A DNA stretch of 11,804 nucleotides from an uncultured Spirochaetaceae bacterium (GTDB lineage Bacteria > Spirochaetota > Spirochaetia > Treponematales > Treponemataceae). Within the stretch, counting starts at the first letter, position 1. Every line of letters starts with the position of its first letter. The notes below the pieces were generated by a model. The model searched no databases and was not told the origin of the DNA. It worked only from the letters and a program-made list of their open reading frames with translations. The DNA lies in the NCBI GenBank assembly GCA_902773215.1, contig CACYDQ010000277.1, forward strand, positions 1 to 11,804. The letters are read 5' to 3'. A program made the position numbers and the translations under genes. Shown here piece after piece: positions 1,093-11,804 of the stretch.

Positions 1093-1851
1093 CTATATGT
1101 TGTACTCCTGGGGCAGGGAGATGTTGTTCCGGAGCAGGAATGCCCGGGTACGCTCGTTCTGCGGGTACTCGAAAATCTGCCCGGCTGTTCCCTGCTCCAC
1201 GATTTTGCCGCCCTCCATAAAGATGACCTTCGTCGCCACCTGACGCACAAATTCCATCTCGTGTGAGACGATAATCATCGTGTTCCCCTCGGCGGCAATC
1301 TGCTTGATTGACGCGAGGACTTCCCCGACAAGCTCGGGGTCAAGCGCGCTCGTCGGCTCATCAAGCAGAAGCAGCTCCGGCTCCATCGCAAGCCCCCGCG
1401 CAATCGCCACCCGCTGCTGCTGGCCCCCGCTCAGATGCTTGGGGTAATACTGCAGGCGGTCCAGCATCTTTACTTTCTCCAGCTGCCGCATGGCAATCCG
1501 CTCGGCTTCCTCCCGGCTCTTTTTCTGCACCCAGACAAGGGGCTGGGCGACATTCTGCAGCACGGTCTTCCGCTGGAAGAGGTTGAAAGACTGGAAGACC
1601 ATCGTGCTCCTCTTCCTCAGCGCGGAGATTTCCTTCTTCTCATGATTCCCGTAATCAAACGAGAAATCATCGAACGATATGACACCCTCCTCCGGTGTCT
1701 CAAGCATATTGATACAGCGGAGCAAGGTGGACTTGCCCGTCCCGCTCGGCCCGATTATCGCGACGACATCGCCCTTTTCCACCGTAAAATCAATTCCGTC
1801 CAGCACGGTGTTCTGCTGGAAGCTTTTCTTCAAATTGCTTATTCGTATCAT
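1093..1851 (-). CDS. Polar amino-acid-type ABC transporter, ATP-binding subunit
   Basis: This 252-residue protein has the usual length for the GlnQ/HisP/TcyN family. It is the cytoplasmic ATPase that powers the importer encoded just upstream. Visible motifs are Walker A GPSGTGKST (34-42), Q-loop Gln87, signature LSGGQQQRVAIARG (140-153), Walker B LLLLDEP (160-166), the D-loop SALDPE, and switch His197 in VSHEM. All catalytic residues are intact. The ATG is one base after the permease TGA, so the two are almost certainly translationally coupled. An AGGGG within the permease end serves as ribosome binding site. It is the last gene of the operon, and no convincing T-tailed hairpin follows it on this strand. 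The substrate cannot be read from an ATPase; polar amino acid or cystine is inferred from the partners. Confidence 0.95.
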   Translation of the reverse strand: MIRISNLKKSFQQNTVLDGIDFTVEKGDVVAIIGPSGTGKSTLLRCINMLETPEEGVISFDDFSFDYGNHEKKEISALRKRSTMVFQSFNLFQRKTVLQNVAQPLVWVQKKSREEAERIAMRQLEKVKMLDRLQYYPKHLSGGQQQRVAIARGLAMEPELLLLDEPTSALDPELVGEVLASIKQIAAEGNTMIIVSHEMEFVRQVATKVIFMEGGKIVEQGTAGQIFEYPQNERTRAFLLRNNISLPQEYNI

Positions 1852-1852
1852 A

Positions 1853-2662
1853 TCATACCCCTGCCCTCACGACACTCACTGCGGCGAATTTCTTTTGACC
1901 CGACCAAGAAAGCGAACGCACTCTTTCCTTGATGCCGATGCCGGATTTCTCTGCTTTCGGTTCATCGGGAATCCTCACGGCATGCAGGACACGAGCGATG
2001 ACGAACTCAAGGAAAATCGTGATGAGCCAGTAGATAACCGCAAGGGCGACGTATGCCTCAAAGTAGCGGTAATTACGGGCCGCGACAATTTTTCCCTGAG
2101 CGGTCATCTCCACGATTGCGCATGAGAATGCAAGCGACGTCCCCTTTACGAGCCCTATCAGCGTGTTGCCCAGGGACGGTATGGCAAGCTCCAGTGCCTC
2201 CGGGATGACGATCCTGACCATCCGCTGAAAGGGAGTCATTCCCAAGGACGTGGCGGCCTCGATTTCCCCCTTGTTCACGGCCTGCAAGGCGGACTGAATC
2301 GTGACGGCATGAAGCGCGGACTGGTTCAACGACAGGGCGACGATGGCGTAGATGATTGACGGGACGTTCCCTATCATCACCTCTTTACCGGTCCAGTAAC
2401 TGTAGTACTTCAGGAAAATCGGAATGCCGAAGTAGGTGACGTAGAGCTGCACAAGAATCGGCGTTCCCCGTATCACCGAGATGAAGAGGGTCACGAGCCG
2501 TTTGAGTACCGGGACTTTTTTTATCCTGATAATCGCGAGCACAAAGCCTATCGCAAGCCCCAAGACCATCGCAAAGACGGACAGCTTGAGGGTGACGGGC
2601 AAAAAACGTATGATTGCCCAGAAGTCGTCATAGACGACGGACACATCGAACAAGTTTGGCAT
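1853..2662 (-). CDS. Polar amino-acid-type ABC transporter permease (His/Glu/Gln/Arg/cystine family)
   Basis: A 269-residue inner-membrane permease with about five hydrophobic segments (roughly 19-46, 55-80, 100-118, 163-188, 202-227). The N-terminal part has the family pattern of a first helix with TLKLS followed by an RGTPILVQL turn near 65-73. The cytoplasmic EAA loop that docks onto the ATPase is at about 134-160 (EIEAATSLGMTPFQ, then IPEAL). The last 35 residues form a basic, hydrophilic tail longer than in most family members. The start is supported by AGGAGGG a few bases upstream, directly behind the M20 stop. Only one permease gene is present, so the transporter would use a homodimeric membrane domain. 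The TcyL/TcyM cystine permeases are the closest resemblance I can name from motifs, but the substrate is inferred only. Confidence 0.93.
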   Translation of the reverse strand: MPNLFDVSVVYDDFWAIIRFLPVTLKLSVFAMVLGLAIGFVLAIIRIKKVPVLKRLVTLFISVIRGTPILVQLYVTYFGIPIFLKYYSYWTGKEVMIGNVPSIIYAIVALSLNQSALHAVTIQSALQAVNKGEIEAATSLGMTPFQRMVRIVIPEALELAIPSLGNTLIGLVKGTSLAFSCAIVEMTAQGKIVAARNYRYFEAYVALAVIYWLITIFLEFVIARVLHAVRIPDEPKAEKSGIGIKERVRSLSWSGQKKFAAVSVVRAGV

Positions 2663-2671
2663 ACATCCCTC

Positions 2672-3826
2672 CTATGCGGCCTTCGCATCGTTCAGGTAAT
2701 CAAAGGCATAGGCAAGGAGGAATTCCAGCCCGTACAGCAGGACTTTCTCATCCACCAATGTCTTGTCGGTATGCTGGGGACGGTATACCCCGTCCGTCAC
2801 GCCGCCGACATGTACGAACACGCCCGGTATCTTTTCCTGATACAACGAAAAATCTTCCCCACCCATGCTCGGCTTTGCCCACTCGACATACTGCTTCCCA
2901 AACAGCTCCTCGACTACACGGGCCGCACGGTCAGTGCTTTCCCTGTCATTGTTCACCGCATGACCATGATTGACATGCGCCACTGAAACGGAGACATCAT
3001 GGCTCGCCTCAATTCCCTTTGCGATGCGGTCAGAAATCTCGTTGAGGATTCTCGTCGTCGCCTCATCGAGCGTACGGAAATTGAGCTGGATGACAACCTT
3101 CTTTGGAAATCCGCAGGACTCGTTCTCGGTAGACACAACGGTCGGAACGAGAACTCCCTGATCCTCGCCCGGGACATGCCGGGTCGCAAGGGAAGTCACC
3201 GTGTTCACCAAATCCGCCGCCGCAAGCAGGGGATTGCCTTTCGCGCCGTCAGCCCGCGTGACCGTGATGGTAACGCCCGAGCCGTATGACGACATGACCC
3301 CGTAGTTGAGAGAGAATATTCCCAAGTCCTTGTCAGCGGCATTGTGCACGCCGACGATGTTGTCCACCCCGTCAAGGATGTTGGTCTCCATCAGCTTCCG
3401 TGCCCCGGCACCTATTTCCTCTCCTTCCTGAAAGATAATCTTCACCGTGCCATGAATCTCATCTTTCAGGTCCTTCAGGATTTTCGCCGCGCCGAGCATA
3501 TAGGTCGCATGAATGTCATGCCCGCAGGCATGCATCACGCCGGGATTCTCCGAGGCAAAATCCACGCCGGTCGCCTCGGTTATCGGGAGCGCGTCAATGT
3601 CTCCCCGCATCGCGACGGTCTTTCCCGGAAGGCTTCCCTTGATTGTTGCGACGATGTCGCTGACACCGGTCGTCTCGTAGGGGATGCCCCACTCATCGAG
3701 ATGGCTCTTGATATATGCCGCCGTCTCGAATTCCTGACTGGACAGCTCAGGGTGGCGGTGGAAATGCTTTCTCGTCTCAACGAGAAAATCAAAGTTATCC
3801 AGCACGAGTTTCTTCAAATCTGCCAT
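2672..3826 (-). CDS. M20-family amidohydrolase/deacylase with degenerate lid domain
   Basis: A 384-residue M20D-type (aminoacylase/amidohydrolase) metallohydrolase. The di-metal ligands expected for the family are all present: Cys101 and His103 in ACGHD, the EGEE motif with Glu136/Glu137 as catalytic and metal Glu, His161 in VGVHN, and His352 near the C-terminus; MGGEDFS is at 321-327. The N-terminal RKHFHRHPELS signature is intact. The inserted lid/dimerisation domain (about 182-290) is abnormal. Where relatives have a G-G-H loop it reads RADGAKGNP (191-199), about five residues shorter, and the G-T-x-x-N-x-I-P motif is replaced by ENESCGFP (234-241). The start has a perfect AAGGAGG 7 nt upstream, and the ATG overlaps the preceding TAA by one base (TAATG). 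Within an ABC importer operon it most likely hydrolyses an imported N-acyl or amide substrate, by analogy with M20 deacetylases in Bacillus S-compound operons. The substrate is unknown. Confidence 0.92.
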   Translation of the reverse strand: MADLKKLVLDNFDFLVETRKHFHRHPELSSQEFETAAYIKSHLDEWGIPYETTGVSDIVATIKGSLPGKTVAMRGDIDALPITEATGVDFASENPGVMHACGHDIHATYMLGAAKILKDLKDEIHGTVKIIFQEGEEIGAGARKLMETNILDGVDNIVGVHNAADKDLGIFSLNYGVMSSYGSGVTITVTRADGAKGNPLLAAADLVNTVTSLATRHVPGEDQGVLVPTVVSTENESCGFPKKVVIQLNFRTLDEATTRILNEISDRIAKGIEASHDVSVSVAHVNHGHAVNNDRESTDRAARVVEELFGKQYVEWAKPSMGGEDFSLYQEKIPGVFVHVGGVTDGVYRPQHTDKTLVDEKVLLYGLEFLLAYAFDYLNDAKAA

Positions 3827-4212
3827 TATGCGACCTCCTTAGTTTTTTTGCCGGAATACCGTGCCTTGTAGCTCACCTGATACAATGCGGAGATGGCATC
3901 CGCGCTCGTCTCGATGAGACTCTTGAGCTGCCGTGCCTGGGCTTCCGTCACGAACTCAGCTCTCAGCACCAGATCTGCCGTCTCAGGGATGATGTTGCTC
4001 TTTGTTCCCGCCGAAAAGCTGACGGGATACAGGGCGACGTTATCGAACGAGTCGAACTCGTACCACAGGCGCTGGGTCACCGCGTGAATCAGTTCGAAGC
4101 CTGCGATGACGGGGTTGTGCGTCTTGAACGGCGTGGAGCTGTGCCCGCCCAGTCCCAGTATGTGTACCGCGACATCAAATGATTCGGTCCTTTTCGGATT
4201 TTTCTCTGCCAT
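3826..4212 (-). CDS. Stand-alone M20 peptidase lid/dimerisation domain protein
   Basis: A 128-residue protein that consists almost entirely of an M20 lid (bacterial dimerisation) domain, without any catalytic domain or metal ligands. It has the canonical lid motifs: GLGGHSSTP with His24, the following HNP, and SAGTKSNIIPE (68-77) with Asn73. The start at 4212 is chosen because a perfect AAGGAGG (4227-4221) lies 8 nt upstream; a longer upstream reading (to 4257) would overlap the lipoprotein gene and lacks this support. It is not a broken M20 gene. It is 13 nt behind the lipoprotein stop, has its own strong ribosome binding site, and its stop overlaps the start of the full-length M20 gene. In M20 dimers the lid His and Asn complete the active site of the partner chain, so this protein probably acts as a subunit of the neighbouring hydrolase. 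That role is inferred from motifs and coupling. Confidence 0.85.
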   Translation of the reverse strand: MAEKNPKRTESFDVAVHILGLGGHSSTPFKTHNPVIAGFELIHAVTQRLWYEFDSFDNVALYPVSFSAGTKSNIIPETADLVLRAEFVTEAQARQLKSLIETSADAISALYQVSYKARYSGKKTKEVA

Positions 4213-4220
4213 ACTCTGTT

Positions 4221-4227
4221 CCTCCTT
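4221..4227 (-). promoter_or_regulatory. Ribosome binding site fixing the start of the lid protein
   Basis: The perfect Shine-Dalgarno AAGGAGG overlaps the TAA stop of the lipoprotein gene and lies 8 nt before the ATG at 4212. It shows that the small lid-domain gene is a designed, independently initiated gene rather than a degraded remnant. Confidence 0.85.
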
Positions 4228-5137
4228 ATTTTGCCTGGTCCTTTGCGACTTTCTCACGGGCGGACTTCACCAAATCAAGCGTCAGGTAGTCATCCTCTTC
4301 CGTAAGCCCGAAGTATTTTGCGCGGAGGGCGTGAATCGTCCCGTCCTCGATAAGGCTCAGCAGGACGTCATCAAACTCTTTCTGCAGCTGCTCCTCGCCT
4401 TTGGGGAAGATGTAGAAATTGCCGTCAATGTGGAAGTTGCCGATGCTGTCCATCCATGCCTCATAATCCTCACGGGGTATCGGATGAATCTCAAGGTTGT
4501 CAAGCTTCGTCCTCGCGACATGCTGCTCGATTGCGTAGCGCGTGAAAAGGTAGAAGTCATACTTTCCTGTAGAGACATCAAGCCCGTACTCGGTCTCGGC
4601 ATCCGTATAATGAATGTCGATGGGATTGTCGGGGTAAGTCTTGTTGTTCAGCTCGTAATTCGTGGAGTTAAAGCTGCTCGGGGACGCGACGGTAGAATGC
4701 CCGCCCAAATCCCGCACGGTCTTGATGGGGCTGCCCTTCTTCACGAGTATCGCGCTTCCGCCATAGTCATAGGGAGCGGAGAACAGGTACTTCTCGCCGC
4801 GGGCACGGTTGTAGCCCAAGTGATTCACGCCGAACTGATACATGCCGCTGTCAAGACCCGTAAAGATGGACGCGAACTCCGTGACCACGAACTTGGTCTC
4901 GTACTGCGGAAGCTTTTCGAACACGAGGCGTATCACGTCTATGTCATACCCCCCGGGAACACCATTGTCATCGACGACAATCCATGGCGATGGGCTGGAG
5001 CTCGAGGCTATCGTGATAAGCCTCTTGCCTGTCTGCCCCTCCGTGTTTTTCTGTTTGCCTCCGCATGACAGCAAAAGAAGTGATGAAAGCAAGACGGCTC
5101 CTGCCCCTGCCGACCTCAGATGTTTCGTAACGTTCAT
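4226..5137 (-). CDS. ABC transporter substrate-binding lipoprotein (SBP_bac_3 type)
   Basis: A 303-residue extracytoplasmic receptor that delivers substrate to the permease encoded downstream. The start at 5137 is preceded by TGGAGG with a 7-nt spacer; an upstream in-frame Met at 5182 would lie inside the leader terminator and is rejected. The N-terminus is a lipoprotein signal: short basic n-region, hydrophobic stretch, lipobox L-L-L-S-C with Cys25 as lipidated residue, then GGKQ. The mature part follows the family-3 solute-binding pattern, with PWIVVDDNGVPGGYDIDVIR near the N-terminus, an FTGLDSG segment and a FSAPYDYGGSAILVKKG hinge region. It ends in a Lys-rich tail (AREKVAKDQAK). It is the first gene of the ABC/M20 operon, behind a promoter and riboswitch-like leader. 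The family usually binds polar amino acids including cystine; the actual ligand is not readable here. Confidence 0.93.
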   Translation of the reverse strand: MNVTKHLRSAGAGAVLLSSLLLLSCGGKQKNTEGQTGKRLITIASSSSPSPWIVVDDNGVPGGYDIDVIRLVFEKLPQYETKFVVTEFASIFTGLDSGMYQFGVNHLGYNRARGEKYLFSAPYDYGGSAILVKKGSPIKTVRDLGGHSTVASPSSFNSTNYELNNKTYPDNPIDIHYTDAETEYGLDVSTGKYDFYLFTRYAIEQHVARTKLDNLEIHPIPREDYEAWMDSIGNFHIDGNFYIFPKGEEQLQKEFDDVLLSLIEDGTIHALRAKYFGLTEEDDYLTLDLVKSAREKVAKDQAK

Positions 5138-5167
5138 ATAAATACCTCCAGTATTTTGGCCAGAAAC

Positions 5168-5218
5168 AAAAAAGGCTCCCAAAGAAGGGCGGGCACTCCC
5201 GCCTCTCTTTCGGAACCT
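5168..5218 (-). terminator. Leader A intrinsic terminator
   Basis: The 5' arm AGGTTCC (5218-5212) pairs with GGAGCCT (5179-5173, one G-U pair). The inner helix GGCGGG (5203-5198) pairs with CCCGCC around an AGTG loop, with an AAAGA/TCTTT helix between them. Six T residues follow (5173-5168). It lies 30 nt before the lipoprotein ATG, so it would abort the operon transcript unless the competing upstream fold forms. Confidence 0.85.
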
Positions 5219-6986: not shown

Positions 6987-8291
6987 CTAGTTGAAGCGCT
7001 GCACGGCAACGGTATAGATATCCTCTATGAGCCGTATACCCCCGGTGTAGCCAGCATAGAAGCTGTCCATGACGACCCTGTTCTGGAAAGGCCATGAGAC
7101 ATTCAGGAAGTTACCCTTCAGGTCTTCGGTGACTTCCTTGTCATAGTAGCTTCCCAGCACGAGGGGATATCCATGGTAATCATGCTCCCGTATCTGATTG
7201 TGAATCAGGTAGCTGTCGGTCGTAAATTCCACTTCCGCCTGAATGCCGTAGTTGAGCTTCTTGAATTCCTCCGTGATTGCCGCCTGGTAGTCCTTGGGCG
7301 TGTCATCGGTGATGAACTGCTTTGCGGGGAAGAGGCCCAGGTCGTTCACGAGGAACTTCGTGAAGGCGAGGGCATAGTGCGCATCCGCGACAACCGAAAA
7401 CTGCTTATTGATGACGCGGTTCTCCAGGAAGAGATCGGCATAGCGTTCGATGAGATAGTAGAAGTACTTCTCATGCTCCGCAACAACGGCCTCCACTTTC
7501 TCCGCAGGAACTTTCGCAAACTCGCCGACCGCGCGGAGGAACTTGCTGGTCTCAGTCGCCCCGACGGGAAGCACCGGATAGTGCAGATAAGGAATGCCGA
7601 GCTTCTTTTCCATCTTCTGCACGTTCTTGAGTCCGACCCAGGGGGAGACAAGCAGGTTGAACTGTGCCTTGGGAACAAGGTCGATGTTCTGTATACCCCG
7701 GTCGTATCCGAAAATCGTATTGGGTGTAAGCCCCAGCTCCGCGACGAGCTTTTCCAGCTCACGCAGGTTTCCCAGCCAGAACTGGTCCTGATAGGGAACG
7801 TCCGCCCAGATGTTCACGAGCCCCGGTACTTTCTCGCTGTCGGGCACCTTCTTGAGATACTGGCTGATTATCGCATCGACGACCTGCTCGTGCCCCTTGT
7901 AGTTGTTACCCTTGAAGCCCGCCGTGCTCGCATAGATGACGGGCTTTTCCGCATCCGCGAACTGGCTCACGACCTCTCCGGTGTCGTCCCCCACGATTTC
8001 AGGAATGCAGCCGGTCAGCACGACGTAGAGGTCGGCATCTATGACTTTGAGCGCATTGTCAATCGTGCTCGCGAGCTTCTTGGTTCCGCCAAAGACGACA
8101 TCCTTCTCATTGATGCTCGTGCAGGGGAAGATGTTCGGCGAGAAGTAGCCAGAGCTGCCCATGCCGTCAGAAAGCTTCTGGGCACATCCCGGGCCGGAGT
8201 GCAGGACGGGGATGGCCCTCGTAATCGCCTGCACGGTCTGCATGGAGGCAAGCGCACACTTGTATCTTTGTTTATCCAGCAACTTTGCCAT
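6987..8291 (-). CDS. Nitrogenase-like component 1 beta subunit (NifK/MarK-like)
   Basis: A 434-residue NifK-like protein that would pair with the NifD-like subunit. Three cysteines occur at P-cluster positions: Cys12 in YKCALAS, Cys36 in LHSGPGCA and Cys95 in LTGCIPEIVGDD, with spacings (24, 59) very close to those of NifK (25, 58). The protein lacks the roughly 60-residue N-terminal extension of molybdenum NifK, as in alternative and nitrogenase-like systems. The start at 8291 has GGAGGAG at good spacing; a longer upstream reading (to 8429) would be an out-of-frame overlap with the D subunit and is rejected. The real gene overlaps the D gene by 20 nt, indicating coupled translation. Genes for cofactor assembly (NifB/E/N types) are not in the window. 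Nitrogenase itself is possible, but the sulfur gene context favours a methylthio-alkane-reductase-like enzyme. Confidence 0.85.
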   Translation of the reverse strand: MAKLLDKQRYKCALASMQTVQAITRAIPVLHSGPGCAQKLSDGMGSSGYFSPNIFPCTSINEKDVVFGGTKKLASTIDNALKVIDADLYVVLTGCIPEIVGDDTGEVVSQFADAEKPVIYASTAGFKGNNYKGHEQVVDAIISQYLKKVPDSEKVPGLVNIWADVPYQDQFWLGNLRELEKLVAELGLTPNTIFGYDRGIQNIDLVPKAQFNLLVSPWVGLKNVQKMEKKLGIPYLHYPVLPVGATETSKFLRAVGEFAKVPAEKVEAVVAEHEKYFYYLIERYADLFLENRVINKQFSVVADAHYALAFTKFLVNDLGLFPAKQFITDDTPKDYQAAITEEFKKLNYGIQAEVEFTTDSYLIHNQIREHDYHGYPLVLGSYYDKEVTEDLKGNFLNVSWPFQNRVVMDSFYAGYTGGIRLIEDIYTVAVQRFN

Positions 8292-9753
8292 TTTTCTTCT
8301 CCTCCTCAAAGAATTTGTCGATGTTCTGCTCATACCACCAGTCGGTGTAGGGCAGCTTGACCCGGCTGGCGAGGTTCTTCTCGAAGCTCCTGTTGCGGAT
8401 GCTGTCCAGAATCGTCTTGGCAAACTCAAGCGTGTGCTTGTAGCCGAAAATCATGTACTCATCGGCAACGTAAACCGCGCTTGTCCCGTTCTTGATTGCC
8501 CACACGGTTGAACCGGGATGACGCGAGAAGTAGAGGTCGGGTTTGAACTTGTGAAGGATATTCATCACCTCGTAGTTCTGCTGGTCCGACACGCTCGCCT
8601 CAAAGTTGATGTTGTTCTCAAGCAGGTACTTCATCGACGGGGGTACGTCGCCGTTCTCGTACTTCTTGTCGTAGTGCCAGGCGAGCGCCCACACGACCTC
8701 AATTCCCAGCTCGTTCAGGACACGGCTCACCTCGAAGGTGTAGCCGGGCCCCATGCCAATGACGGCGCGGAGTCCCTTAAGTTCCTTCTTTATCTCTTCA
8801 ATCTGGGGGATGTAGATAGCCCGCTGTTCCTCGATGTACTTCTCCACCTTGTCGCTGCGTCCGGTTACCTTTCCTATCTCGCGGAGCCATGTCTCGAAGC
8901 CGACGATGCCGCACTGGTTGATGCTGCGCACGTAGGGCACACCGTACTTCTCCTCAAGCCCGTTGCCCAAGTAGTTCCCCAGGGTACCGCAGATACAGGT
9001 CGTCACGACGGACTCCGAGATGTGGGACAGCTCCTCGATCGTCGAGTTGCAGTACAAGAAAACCGGCTCCAGGTCGAAGTTCTTGAAAATCTCGATAATT
9101 TCCGGCCTCGCGCTCTCGTAGAAGTTCTTGAAGTTTATCGTGTTCCGCTTCTGCTTGGGCGGCTGCACGATACCTGACAATACGGCATGGTCGGCGATGT
9201 CAAAGCCCGTCGCCCAGATGCGGGACTTGAAGCCCTCGCAGTGGACGGCGATGACCGGCACGTCTATCTCCGCCTTCACATCGTCCACGATGCTGTCTAT
9301 GTCCTCTCCGATGATTCCCGTCGCGCAGGAGCTTGCCACAAAGATTGCCTTGGGCGAATAACGCTTGTTCACCTCGAGGATAATCTTCCTGAGCTTCTCC
9401 GTGGAGCCGAAAATCGTATCCTGCTCGTTCATGTCGGTTCCGACATAGACAGTGCTGGTCGTGACACCGCGCTTCTTTGCCATTACCTTGTCCAGGTAAT
9501 AGGTCCCGGCGGCCGTCACGGAACAGCCCGCAGGCCCGTGATGGATTATCGCGATGTCGCGGATTGCAGACAACTGGCCCAGCGCACACATGGAAAGACA
9601 TGAGCTGGACTGGGAGAAGCAGCGGGAACAGCCCTTAAGCGTCCCGCACTCGGACTTCTCAGCCAAGTCCTTCAGGTCACCGATATACCCCGTTATGGAC
9701 CCGATCCTGTTCTCGCGGGTCGCAACGTTGGAAGAGTTTAAATTCACAGCCAC
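8272..9753 (-). CDS. Nitrogenase-like component 1 alpha subunit (NifD/MarD-like)
   Basis: A 493-residue NifD-like protein. Translation starts with GTG at 9753, supported by AAGGAG 7 nt upstream. P-cluster-type cysteines are Cys56 (MCALGQLSAIRD), Cys77 (HHGPAGC) and Cys143 (SSCATGIIGEDID); the 66-residue gap between the last two equals that in NifD. Cys256, in TTCICGTLGNYL and 12 residues before EEKYG, aligns by eye with NifD Cys275, the cofactor ligand. The second cofactor ligand, His442 of NifD, does not appear to be conserved: the region reads VADEYMIFGYKH, with Asp431 or Ala430 at that position. The N-terminus is unusually Cys-rich (Cys36, 42, 45, 52 and 56). The gene is 29 nt behind the CysK-like gene and overlaps the K gene. 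It very likely holds a complex Fe-S cofactor and reduces a small molecule, perhaps an organic thioether. The exact substrate is inferred. Confidence 0.85.
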   Translation of the reverse strand: MAVNLNSSNVATRENRIGSITGYIGDLKDLAEKSECGTLKGCSRCFSQSSSCLSMCALGQLSAIRDIAIIHHGPAGCSVTAAGTYYLDKVMAKKRGVTTSTVYVGTDMNEQDTIFGSTEKLRKIILEVNKRYSPKAIFVASSCATGIIGEDIDSIVDDVKAEIDVPVIAVHCEGFKSRIWATGFDIADHAVLSGIVQPPKQKRNTINFKNFYESARPEIIEIFKNFDLEPVFLYCNSTIEELSHISESVVTTCICGTLGNYLGNGLEEKYGVPYVRSINQCGIVGFETWLREIGKVTGRSDKVEKYIEEQRAIYIPQIEEIKKELKGLRAVIGMGPGYTFEVSRVLNELGIEVVWALAWHYDKKYENGDVPPSMKYLLENNINFEASVSDQQNYEVMNILHKFKPDLYFSRHPGSTVWAIKNGTSAVYVADEYMIFGYKHTLEFAKTILDSIRNRSFEKNLASRVKLPYTDWWYEQNIDKFFEEEKKNGKVAG

Positions 9754-9782
9754 AGTTTGCTCCTTTAAAATCTATAAAACAC

Positions 9783-10799
9783 CTAGAATCCGGCCTTGCT
9801 CTCTACGTCGGGGCGCACCCGCTGCAAGTCCTCCGACAGGTAACGCTCGCCGTTGTCGGGCAGGAGCGGAACAATCAGCTTGCCCTTGTTCTCGTCACGG
9901 AGAGCCTGCTTGATTGCTATGGCGAGGCTTGCTCCGCTCGAAGCCCCGATGAAGATTCCTTCGTAGTGGGCGAGCAGGTGAATGGCCTTCAGTGTCTCAG
10001 CATAGGTTACGGTCTCATACTCGTCCACGACCTTGTCATTGAAGTTGGTCGGGGCCATCGGGTTCAGACCTTTCTCATCGTGAACAGCGTGGATGCCGTG
10101 GAAGCCGCCGTCCTCAACACCCTGCACGACGGGGGTCTCCACGTCGGCCTTGTCCGGCTGTGCGATGACGACCTTGACCGCCTTGTTCTTCTCCTTGAGA
10201 AACTTGCCCACGCCGTGGGTGGATCCGCCCGTACCGACACCGCCGACAAAGATATCGATTTTGCCGTCCGTGTCCTCCCAAATCTCCGGACCGGTATGTT
10301 TGTAATGGGCGGCAACGTTATCCGGGTTGGACAGCTGCCTGGTGGTCCAGCTGTTCGGGGTAGAGTCCAAGAACCACTGGTACACGTCGTTGAAGGCCTC
10401 GATTCCTTTCTCGAAAACCCCGGCTATCAGCTCCTTGGGCGGGGAGACGATTTCCGCATTGTATGCTTCCATCAGTTTCTTGCGCTCGACCGATACCCCG
10501 TTCTGGATTCCAATCTTGAACTTGTAGCCCTTGGCGGCTGCAACCGAAGCAATGCCGATGCCCATGTTGCCGCTCGTGAACTCGACGAGGGTCGTCTTGT
10601 CAGGGCTTATCTCCCCGCGCTGCTCCGCGCTCTCGATAATCTCCAGCGCAGCCCTGTCTTTGTGGCTTCCCGCCGGGTTAAAGTACTCCAGCTTGCCCGC
10701 GATGCGCCCCTTGAGTCCGAGGGCCTTCTCCAGCCTGTGGAACTCCACGATGGGGGTATGCCCGATAAGCTCCGTAATCGAATTGTATATCTTTGCCAT
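9783..10799 (-). CDS. cysK: Cysteine synthase-type PLP enzyme (CysK family, divergent substrate loop)
   Basis: A 338-residue fold-type II PLP enzyme. Lys47 in NPAGSHKDR is the Schiff-base lysine, GVGTGGSTHG (187-196, counting the preceding Gly) is the phosphate-binding loop, GASSGAS is at the C-terminal substrate side, and LPDNGERYLS corresponds to the usual L-P-D-T-G-E-R-Y-L-S. O-acetylserine sulfhydrylases normally read S-V-K-D-R and T-S-G-N-T-G; here these are SHKDR and TSGNMG (75-80), so the loop that grips the substrate carboxylate is changed. The length is slightly above the usual 310-325. The start has GAGGAG upstream. It lies between the NifH-like and NifD-like genes, suggesting it uses a sulfur product of the nitrogenase-like enzyme (sulfide or a thiol) to make cysteine or a related amino acid. 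That is an inference; a different beta-replacement donor is possible. Confidence 0.88.
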   Translation of the reverse strand: MAKIYNSITELIGHTPIVEFHRLEKALGLKGRIAGKLEYFNPAGSHKDRAALEIIESAEQRGEISPDKTTLVEFTSGNMGIGIASVAAAKGYKFKIGIQNGVSVERKKLMEAYNAEIVSPPKELIAGVFEKGIEAFNDVYQWFLDSTPNSWTTRQLSNPDNVAAHYKHTGPEIWEDTDGKIDIFVGGVGTGGSTHGVGKFLKEKNKAVKVVIAQPDKADVETPVVQGVEDGGFHGIHAVHDEKGLNPMAPTNFNDKVVDEYETVTYAETLKAIHLLAHYEGIFIGASSGASLAIAIKQALRDENKGKLIVPLLPDNGERYLSEDLQRVRPDVESKAGF

Positions 10800-10826
10800 A
10801 TTGTTATTTCTCCTCTATCTTACAGA

Positions 10827-10842
10827 GCGCCACGGATGGCGC
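10827..10842 (-). other. Intergenic stem-loop between NifH-like and CysK-like genes
   Basis: GCGCCA and TGGCGC form a perfect 6-bp GC-rich stem with a 4-nt loop in the 56-nt gap behind the NifH-like stop. No T-run follows, so it is not an intrinsic terminator. It could act as a 3' stabiliser or processing site that raises NifH-like protein relative to the downstream genes; this is inferred. Confidence 0.5.
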
Positions 10843-10855
10843 GTCAATTCATATA

Positions 10856-11804
<949 letters not shown>

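Follow-up and report, generated by a model that had tools for sequence, protein, structure and literature searches.

The window, by which we mean the whole 11,804-nucleotide stretch of DNA that was analyzed, belongs to the 2.69 Mb draft genome (72% complete) of an uncultured Spirochaetaceae bacterium, and all of the genes under discussion lie on its minus strand (Table 1). Two of them encode M20-type proteins, a small lid-only protein and, directly downstream, a large hydrolase. The stop codon of the first gene and the start codon of the second overlap in the sequence TAATG and each start is preceded by its own ribosome-binding site; coordinates and motifs were rechecked and are as given in the preliminary description of this DNA. 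The pair is enclosed by the genes of a cystine-type ABC transporter, of which the solute-binding protein gene probably starts at position 5137, with a GGAGG ahead of it. Upstream of the transporter and the pair lie the gene of a MATE transporter and an island of nitrogenase-like genes, in which PF00148 is matched at 229 and 240 bits, PF00142 at 430 bits, and PF00291 as well.

Table 1. Features of the window discussed in the text, with positions numbered from its first nucleotide.
Feature	Position	Strand	Remarks
Lid-only protein, 128 aa, stand-alone M20 dimerization/lid domain	3826..4212	-	
Large M20D hydrolase, 384 aa, catalytic domain plus lid without trans-acting His/Asn	2672..3826	-	
AAGGAGG, ribosome-binding site of lid-only gene	4221..4227	-	
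AAGGAGG, ribosome-binding site of large gene	3834..3840	-	within 3' end of lid-only gene
His24 of lid-only protein, putative trans-acting lid His	4141..4143	-	invariant in 60 aligned; 63/63
Asn73 of lid-only protein, putative trans-acting lid Asn	3994..3996	-	invariant in 60 aligned; 63/63
Glu86 of lid-only protein	3955..3957	-	position of the cis-acting Arg in intact M20D lids
Cys101, bridging metal ligand of large chain	3524..3526	-	46/46 and 96/96
Eroded lid loop RADGAKGNP, residues 191-199 of large chain	3230..3256	-	relatives: G-G-H loop, GGH-S-x-P
Eroded second lid motif ENESCGFP, residues 234-241 of large chain	3104..3127	-	relatives: G-T-x-x-N-x-I-P
Arg251 of large chain, equivalent of cis-acting Arg258 of H. 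influenzae DapE	3074..3076	-	46/46; Asn-Arg spacing
Family 3 amino-acid ABC solute-binding protein	4226..5182	-	Pfam SBP_bac_3, 92.5 bits
ABC permease, cystine type	1853..2662	-	NCBIfam PRK15100, 151 bits, under cut-off of 300
ABC ATPase, cystine TcyN type	1093..1851	-	NCBIfam PRK11264, 308.6 bits, under cut-off of 406
Nitrogenase-like island: two Oxidored_nitro, cysteine-synthase-like, and NifH-like genes	6987..11704	-	Pfam

Active sites that are shared across the M20 homodimer are well known from DapE and aminoacylase-1. The large protein of the window passes the curated M20D subfamily model TIGR01891 (269.9 bits, cut-off 153.75) and its predicted model shows the whole-chain fold of solved M20D enzymes. 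As the preliminary description had reported, it keeps the metal ligands Cys101, His103, Glu137, His161, and His352, and it has the general base Glu136 too. Each ligand and the base Glu are present in 46/46 of the relatives that lack the lid His (the His-less group) and in 96/96 of those with an intact lid, both sets comprising proteins of 340-420 residues from which sequences more than 85% identical were removed. The ligands are as in the structure 6SLF, where Cys101 corresponds to Cys-105 (PMC7209930).

Alignment with relatives bore out the earlier observation that RADGAKGNP and ENESCGFP replace the two lid motifs of the large chain, and it ruled out a conserved lid His in this chain after all. 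The His column is a gap in 20 of the 46 His-less rows. A His does fall in this column in P0023 (one of the 46 rows of the thinned set) and, without thinning, also in P0024, P0026, and genome G1394, all of which were retained in the His-less set; in these four the His occurs in a shortened, eroded loop without the GGH-S-x-P context. The loop reads ERDDAHKGN in G1394, the large gene of which (L199, 594-1493) runs into a stretch of Ns in the assembly. The Asn column keeps its Asn in 11 of the 46 large chains, some Clostridium members included, and the spacing from the Asn position to the Arg is 13 residues in the large chain of the window, the same as between N245 and R258 of DapE.

The lid of the large chain (residues 181-285) forms a complete βαββαβ domain in the AlphaFold model (mean pLDDT of the chain, 93.6). 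A Pfam scan of the large chain detected no lid domain, as compared with detection in 10 of 23 aligned relatives. The lids of the large chains vary more than their catalytic domains (mean identity 0.32 versus 0.57), the corresponding values being 0.46 and 0.52 for the eight intact sisters used for comparison. A protein recorded as coming from Treponema sp. (P0058) is 50% identical to the large chain of the window. Another His-less large chain, P0085 (531 residues), is annotated with the additional domains PF00293 and PF14815, which we take to be NUDIX and NUDIX_4.

The small protein had been read as a lid and nothing else, with both motifs intact, and this holds. It contains GLGGHSSTP with His24 and AGTKSNIIP with Asn73, and passes the Pfam M20_dimer model (PF07687; 40.4 bits, cut-off 21). 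It is without a catalytic domain and scores 45.7 bits with TIGR01891, below the cut-off of 153.75. Its single-chain AlphaFold model has the complete βαββαβ lid fold, and its limits match those of the lid insert of full-length M20 proteins. Those clostridial lid-only proteins that have a name in their source are called 'peptidase dimerization domain-containing protein', 'hippurate hydrolase', or 'metal-dependent amidase/aminoacylase/carboxypeptidase family protein'. Three lid-only proteins (P0179, P0180, and P0183) are longer, at 177-194 residues, and end in a lengthy, charged C-terminal extension. When plasmids were searched with the lid-only protein, 37 records were returned, all under 60% identity; the five matches listed comprise four proteins annotated as M20 enzymes and a hypothetical protein.

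Conservation of the gene pair

Of the 120 best-listed homologues of the large chain (from a total of 7509), 82 are without an intact lid motif and 38 have it, and a profile search with the small protein gave 74 proteins, 72 of which have the lid domain alone. The preliminary description had suggested a survey of genomes for co-occurrence of lid-only genes with His-less M20 genes, and the two were found together throughout. Among 390 genomes of the window's order there are five large-chain matches (580-632 bits, the next best being 287), each with a lid-only gene immediately upstream (5/5); three matches (E ≤ 1e-110) among 206 genomes of a clostridial family are likewise paired (3/3); and in a lid-first search of 200 genomes of the window's genus, a lid-only gene was found in 10 and the large gene adjoins it in 10/10, G1394 included, the eleventh match being a full-length enzyme. 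The pair is carried by 13 different genomes, with eight loci found via the large gene and five via the lid-only gene, and the two genes are adjacent in 13/13. The 390 genomes of the order, as well as the 397 of a second clostridial family and the 176 of the genus that are referred to below, are samples drawn evenly from larger groups.

A generic-pattern locus search supplied the control loci. Of the 80 matches listed from it, the near relative L027 was excluded, and beside the remaining 79 intact-lid M20D loci (9 kb or longer in 62 cases) a lid-only ORF was found in none. Among the best-listed proteins, the longest-contig size is identical to that of a lid-only protein for 20 of the 82 His-less chains and for 0 of the 38 intact ones, when the sizes were shifted as a control, such matches averaged 0.44 and never exceeded 3.

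Between the window and G267, purifying selection on both genes is strong, with a dN/dS of 0.05 for the small gene and likewise for the large. In Clostridium pairs the NG86 values are 0.16-0.45 for the small gene and 0.18-0.19 for the large, with dN/dS saturated or without a value for some pairs; the highest small-gene value, for G857 and G847, is 0.45 by NG86 and 0.22 by YN00, and the large gene has 0.18 by NG86 there. Chance or a mis-read frame as the origin of the small ORF is ruled out by this selection together with the conservation. The paired genes form a family that is conserved among spirochaete and clostridial relatives and that includes cultured clostridia, one of them the solvent producer Clostridium saccharoperbutylacetonicum. 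In L152 a second, complete M20 gene with its own lid (9374-10561) lies directly downstream of the clostridial large gene, and in L153 a corresponding second M20 gene downstream of the large gene (9255-10430) is seen as an ORF.

Reciprocal residue loss and the history of the two lids

The strongest result, and one that is absent from the preliminary description, is the reciprocal loss of residues between the two lids. Intact M20D lids have the His, the Asn, and the Arg in 96/96 each, and the His-less large chains have the His in 1/46, the Asn in 11/46, and the Arg in 46/46. The lid-only proteins have both His and Asn in 63/63 and the Arg in 0/63, with a Glu at the Arg position in 33, the 63 being those of 110-150 residues with identifiers up to P0189. 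The pair in the window has the lid His, Asn, and Arg each present once across its two chains. The six lid columns that are at least 95% conserved in intact enzymes are divided between the two proteins: Gly198, His202, Pro206, and Asn251 (L027 numbering) are kept in the small protein and lost in the large, and Val238 and Arg264 are kept in the large and lost in the small. The intact database rows were chosen for their lid His but the 79 genome loci were not, and these M20D loci, found regardless of lid, have His and Asn in 79/79 among the matches listed. The pair represents a clear case of a residue-by-residue division of labor following domain duplication.

The chain from which each lid residue acts has been assigned in H. 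influenzae DapE, where, in models built on 5VO3, the residues that position the substrate are His194, Asn244, and Asn245 of one chain (B) and Arg258 of the other (A) (PMC5919655). A second account agrees on Arg258 and Asn245 but puts H194 in chain A (PMC11270798), which conflicts with the first and counts against reading the lid His as trans-acting.

Among the 397 genomes of the second clostridial family, one has a close single-gene relative, L027 (2717-3919; 529 bits), whose lid is intact and which lies within the same kind of transporter operon; a search of that genome for a lid-only gene found none. The L027 lid scores 117 bits with the lid-only profile, while the other full-length lids listed reach at most 69.1. 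In L027-type sister lids the trans loops resemble those of the small proteins (identities of 0.61 and 0.64, versus 0.27 and 0.21 to the large chains) and the Arg segment resembles that of the large chains (0.40, versus 0.12 to the small proteins). We considered whether the L027 clade might carry a re-fused lid, but the same mosaic occurs in P0086 and P0090, which lie outside that clade in the catalytic tree, and hence the combination of small-like loops with a large-like Arg segment looks ancestral. The single-gene, intact-lid arrangement of L027 appears to be ancestral as well.

Trees built from the lids group the lid-only proteins in one clade (100/100) and the His-less lids in a second (99/96), and the same two clades are recovered without the motif columns (100/99 and 99/96). 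In the best tree of the catalytic domain the His-less chains are not one clade and three changes are needed, and a single His-less clade is not rejected (p-AU 0.112). The distances between partners are correlated by the mirror-tree approach (r 0.928 over 24 pairs, with 0/5000 permutations as high), a correlation that includes the shared ancestry of the partners; the set consisted of 20 database matches minus P0033, which has two partners, plus five genome loci.

A proposed M20D heteromer

We propose that the two genes very probably specify a single metal-dependent N-acyl hydrolase, an M20D heteromer in which the second protomer is replaced by a lid-only paralogue. The lid of an ancestral homodimeric M20D enzyme would have been duplicated as a free-standing gene. 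In the simplest assembly, a 1:1 heterodimer, the small protein would take the place of the second protomer, with its lid pairing with that of the large chain and with His24 and Asn73 reaching the two-metal site of the large chain, which would itself supply the metal ligands, the base Glu136, and Arg251 from its own lid. The trans loops of the large chain, no longer facing any catalytic domain, would then have eroded, with the fold and the cis Arg kept. The small lid, which has no catalytic domain in its own chain, would have kept its trans loops but lost the cis Arg. Each large chain would then have a single active site that the small subunit completes. The proposal builds on the residues, the gene pairing, and the reciprocal loss, which are observed, and on the two lid folds as predicted in single-chain models, and from these we infer the physical complex, its stoichiometry, and the dependence of activity on the small subunit.

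The preliminary description had proposed that the trans-acting lid has become a separate subunit of a split enzyme. Linkage, co-variation, and most of all the reciprocal loss argue strongly for the separate subunit, and the two chains may also depend on each other obligately or be regulated through subunit supply, as that description further suggested. The split itself has to be given up, as the large chain retains the whole lid fold in its model, including the cis Arg, so that the lid appears to have been duplicated and its tasks divided. The family resembles a natural experiment in which the cis and trans functions of the lid have been placed on separate genes, and hence the chain origin of the lid residues could be tested by mixing the proteins.

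A higher-order assembly with the same trans-acting chemistry, for example of two large and two small chains, is rather unlikely but has precedents, as several M20D enzymes are tetramers (PMC11511702) and AbgAB is an α2β2 tetramer (PMC5082436); a dimer of two small lids within it would leave the lid of the large chain unpaired although its fold has been kept. It is improbable that the large chain forms an ordinary M20 homodimer able to work in the absence of the lid His, with the small lid capping its active site as a regulator or inhibitor. Homodimerization would be compatible with the whole lid domain in the large-chain model, but the His, Asn, and Arg are there just once each across the two chains of the window, the small lids are without the cis Arg in 63/63, a loss that would be needless for a mere inhibitor, and the intact relatives found regardless of lid keep the His in all 79 listed. 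That the small gene is a functionless, decaying fragment of a duplicated M20 gene, as the match of its limits to the lid insert might suggest, is hardly credible for a gene with a dN/dS as low as that of the large gene (window versus G267), His and Asn in every one of 63 members, its own ribosome-binding site, and a single clade in both lid trees.

The heteromer that we favor can be compared with several known M20 systems. The Corynebacterium N-alpha-acyl-glutamine aminoacylase (6SLF), B. subtilis YxeP (1YSJ; presumably UniProt P54955), and the S. aureus protein 4EWT have the fold and the metal ligands of the large chain, but these M20D homodimers are the products of one gene, with identical protomers in which each lid acts both in cis and in trans. 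YxeP is the second-best relative of the large chain in the PDB, and a Klebsiella 'aminobenzoyl-glutamate utilization protein' of solved structure (3io1) is a further match. The DapE of H. influenzae (3IC1, 5VO3), which we take to belong to another M20 subfamily, differs in being a homodimer and matches P0060, an intact relative, with only 28 bits. Its residue logic is the same, with His194, Asn244, and Asn245 assigned in trans and Arg258 in cis (PMC5919655). The lid-deleted enzymes HiDapE-T and VcDapE-T, reported to have no activity without the lid (PMC4012986), are similar in that a catalytic domain is separated from a lid, but they are man-made and the cis lid was removed too, whereas here the cis lid is kept and the trans lid is a separate protein.

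Similar to the pair in its genetic arrangement is the p-aminobenzoyl-glutamate hydrolase AbgA/AbgB of E. coli, an M20-type enzyme whose two unlike subunits come from a single operon (PMC5082436). Both AbgA (436 residues) and AbgB (481 residues) are full-length, compared to 384 and 128 residues here, and its authors had supposed that the two jobs might be shared out between the subunits, but homology turned out to span the whole length of both (PMC5082436). Unlike AbgAB, the system described here would have a bare lid as one subunit, with the lid residues divided between the two. Heteromeric M20 enzymes are already known from AbgAB, and what is new here is the reciprocal loss of residues. No report of a stand-alone M20 lid subunit was found in the literature searched, which lay mostly outside the subscription journals.

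Substrate and the nitrogenase-like neighborhood

We lean toward the fuller reading in which the pair, as a heterodimer with one active site and divided lid residues, serves as the deacylase of an anaerobic, nitrogenase-like organosulfur assimilation island. In 8 of the 13 genomes that carry the pair, G1394 and G1436 among them, nitrogenase-like PF00148 genes share its contig. As for the others, G857 has on the pair contig a gene whose start reads like NifH by eye, the PF00148 matches listed for G367 and G1435 are on contigs other than that of the pair, and G1439 and G1405 make up the remainder. Nitrogenase-like genes were detected in 8/8 of the first eight pair-bearing genomes scanned, but a genus-wide control found them in 97 of 176 genomes, and G425, which has an intact-lid enzyme, has them also. 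As they are common in the genus, their presence says little and physical linkage alone counts, and this control makes the fuller reading slightly less probable.

The clostridial pairs of G845 and G847 have as neighbors genes for NifH-like, NifX-like, and radical SAM proteins, a Cys/Met PLP enzyme, and a cysteine-synthase-like protein, together with two Oxidored_nitro genes, a GNAT acetyltransferase, a GST-like protein, and the second complete M20 enzyme. The island near the pair, in the window and in L149-L154, is probably an anaerobic organosulfur assimilation locus, and the pair may bring a deacylase to nitrogenase-like loci for sulfur assimilation, about which little is known. Cleavage of C-S bonds and assimilation of isethionate have been described for nitrogenase-like enzymes (PMC12552129, PMC11423573), and M20 relatives of B. 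subtilis, clustered with an acetyltransferase, are described as deacetylating N-acetylcysteine (PMC12757645). Given the neighbors and these known C-S and deacetylase systems, the first candidate would be a deacylase of an N-acyl, perhaps S-substituted, cysteine, comparable to N-acetylcysteine deacetylases of the ScmP/YtnL/YhaA type. The cystine-type transporter and the nitrogenase-like neighbors weakly suggest a substrate of the N-acyl-cysteine type, perhaps an N-acyl, S-substituted cysteine that would be imported by the adjacent transporter.

There is a real, if lesser, chance that the substrate is some other acylated amino acid or a dipeptide and that the organosulfur neighbors are incidental. 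Known M20D substrates include many acyl-amino acids and dipeptides (PMC11511702), the transporter matches are below the NCBIfam equivalog cut-offs, and, as noted above, nitrogenase-like genes are found in more than half of the genus sample and in a genome with an intact lid. Arguing for the cysteine-type substrate are the linkage on the pair contig in 8 of 13 genomes and the identity of the large-chain relative YxeP (1ysj) with the N-acetylcysteine deacetylase ScmP (PMC12757645). Further, higher-scoring sets of PF00148 genes (up to 438 bits) lie away from the M20 pair in G356 (contig C13), G410 (contig C48), G845, G847, and G857.
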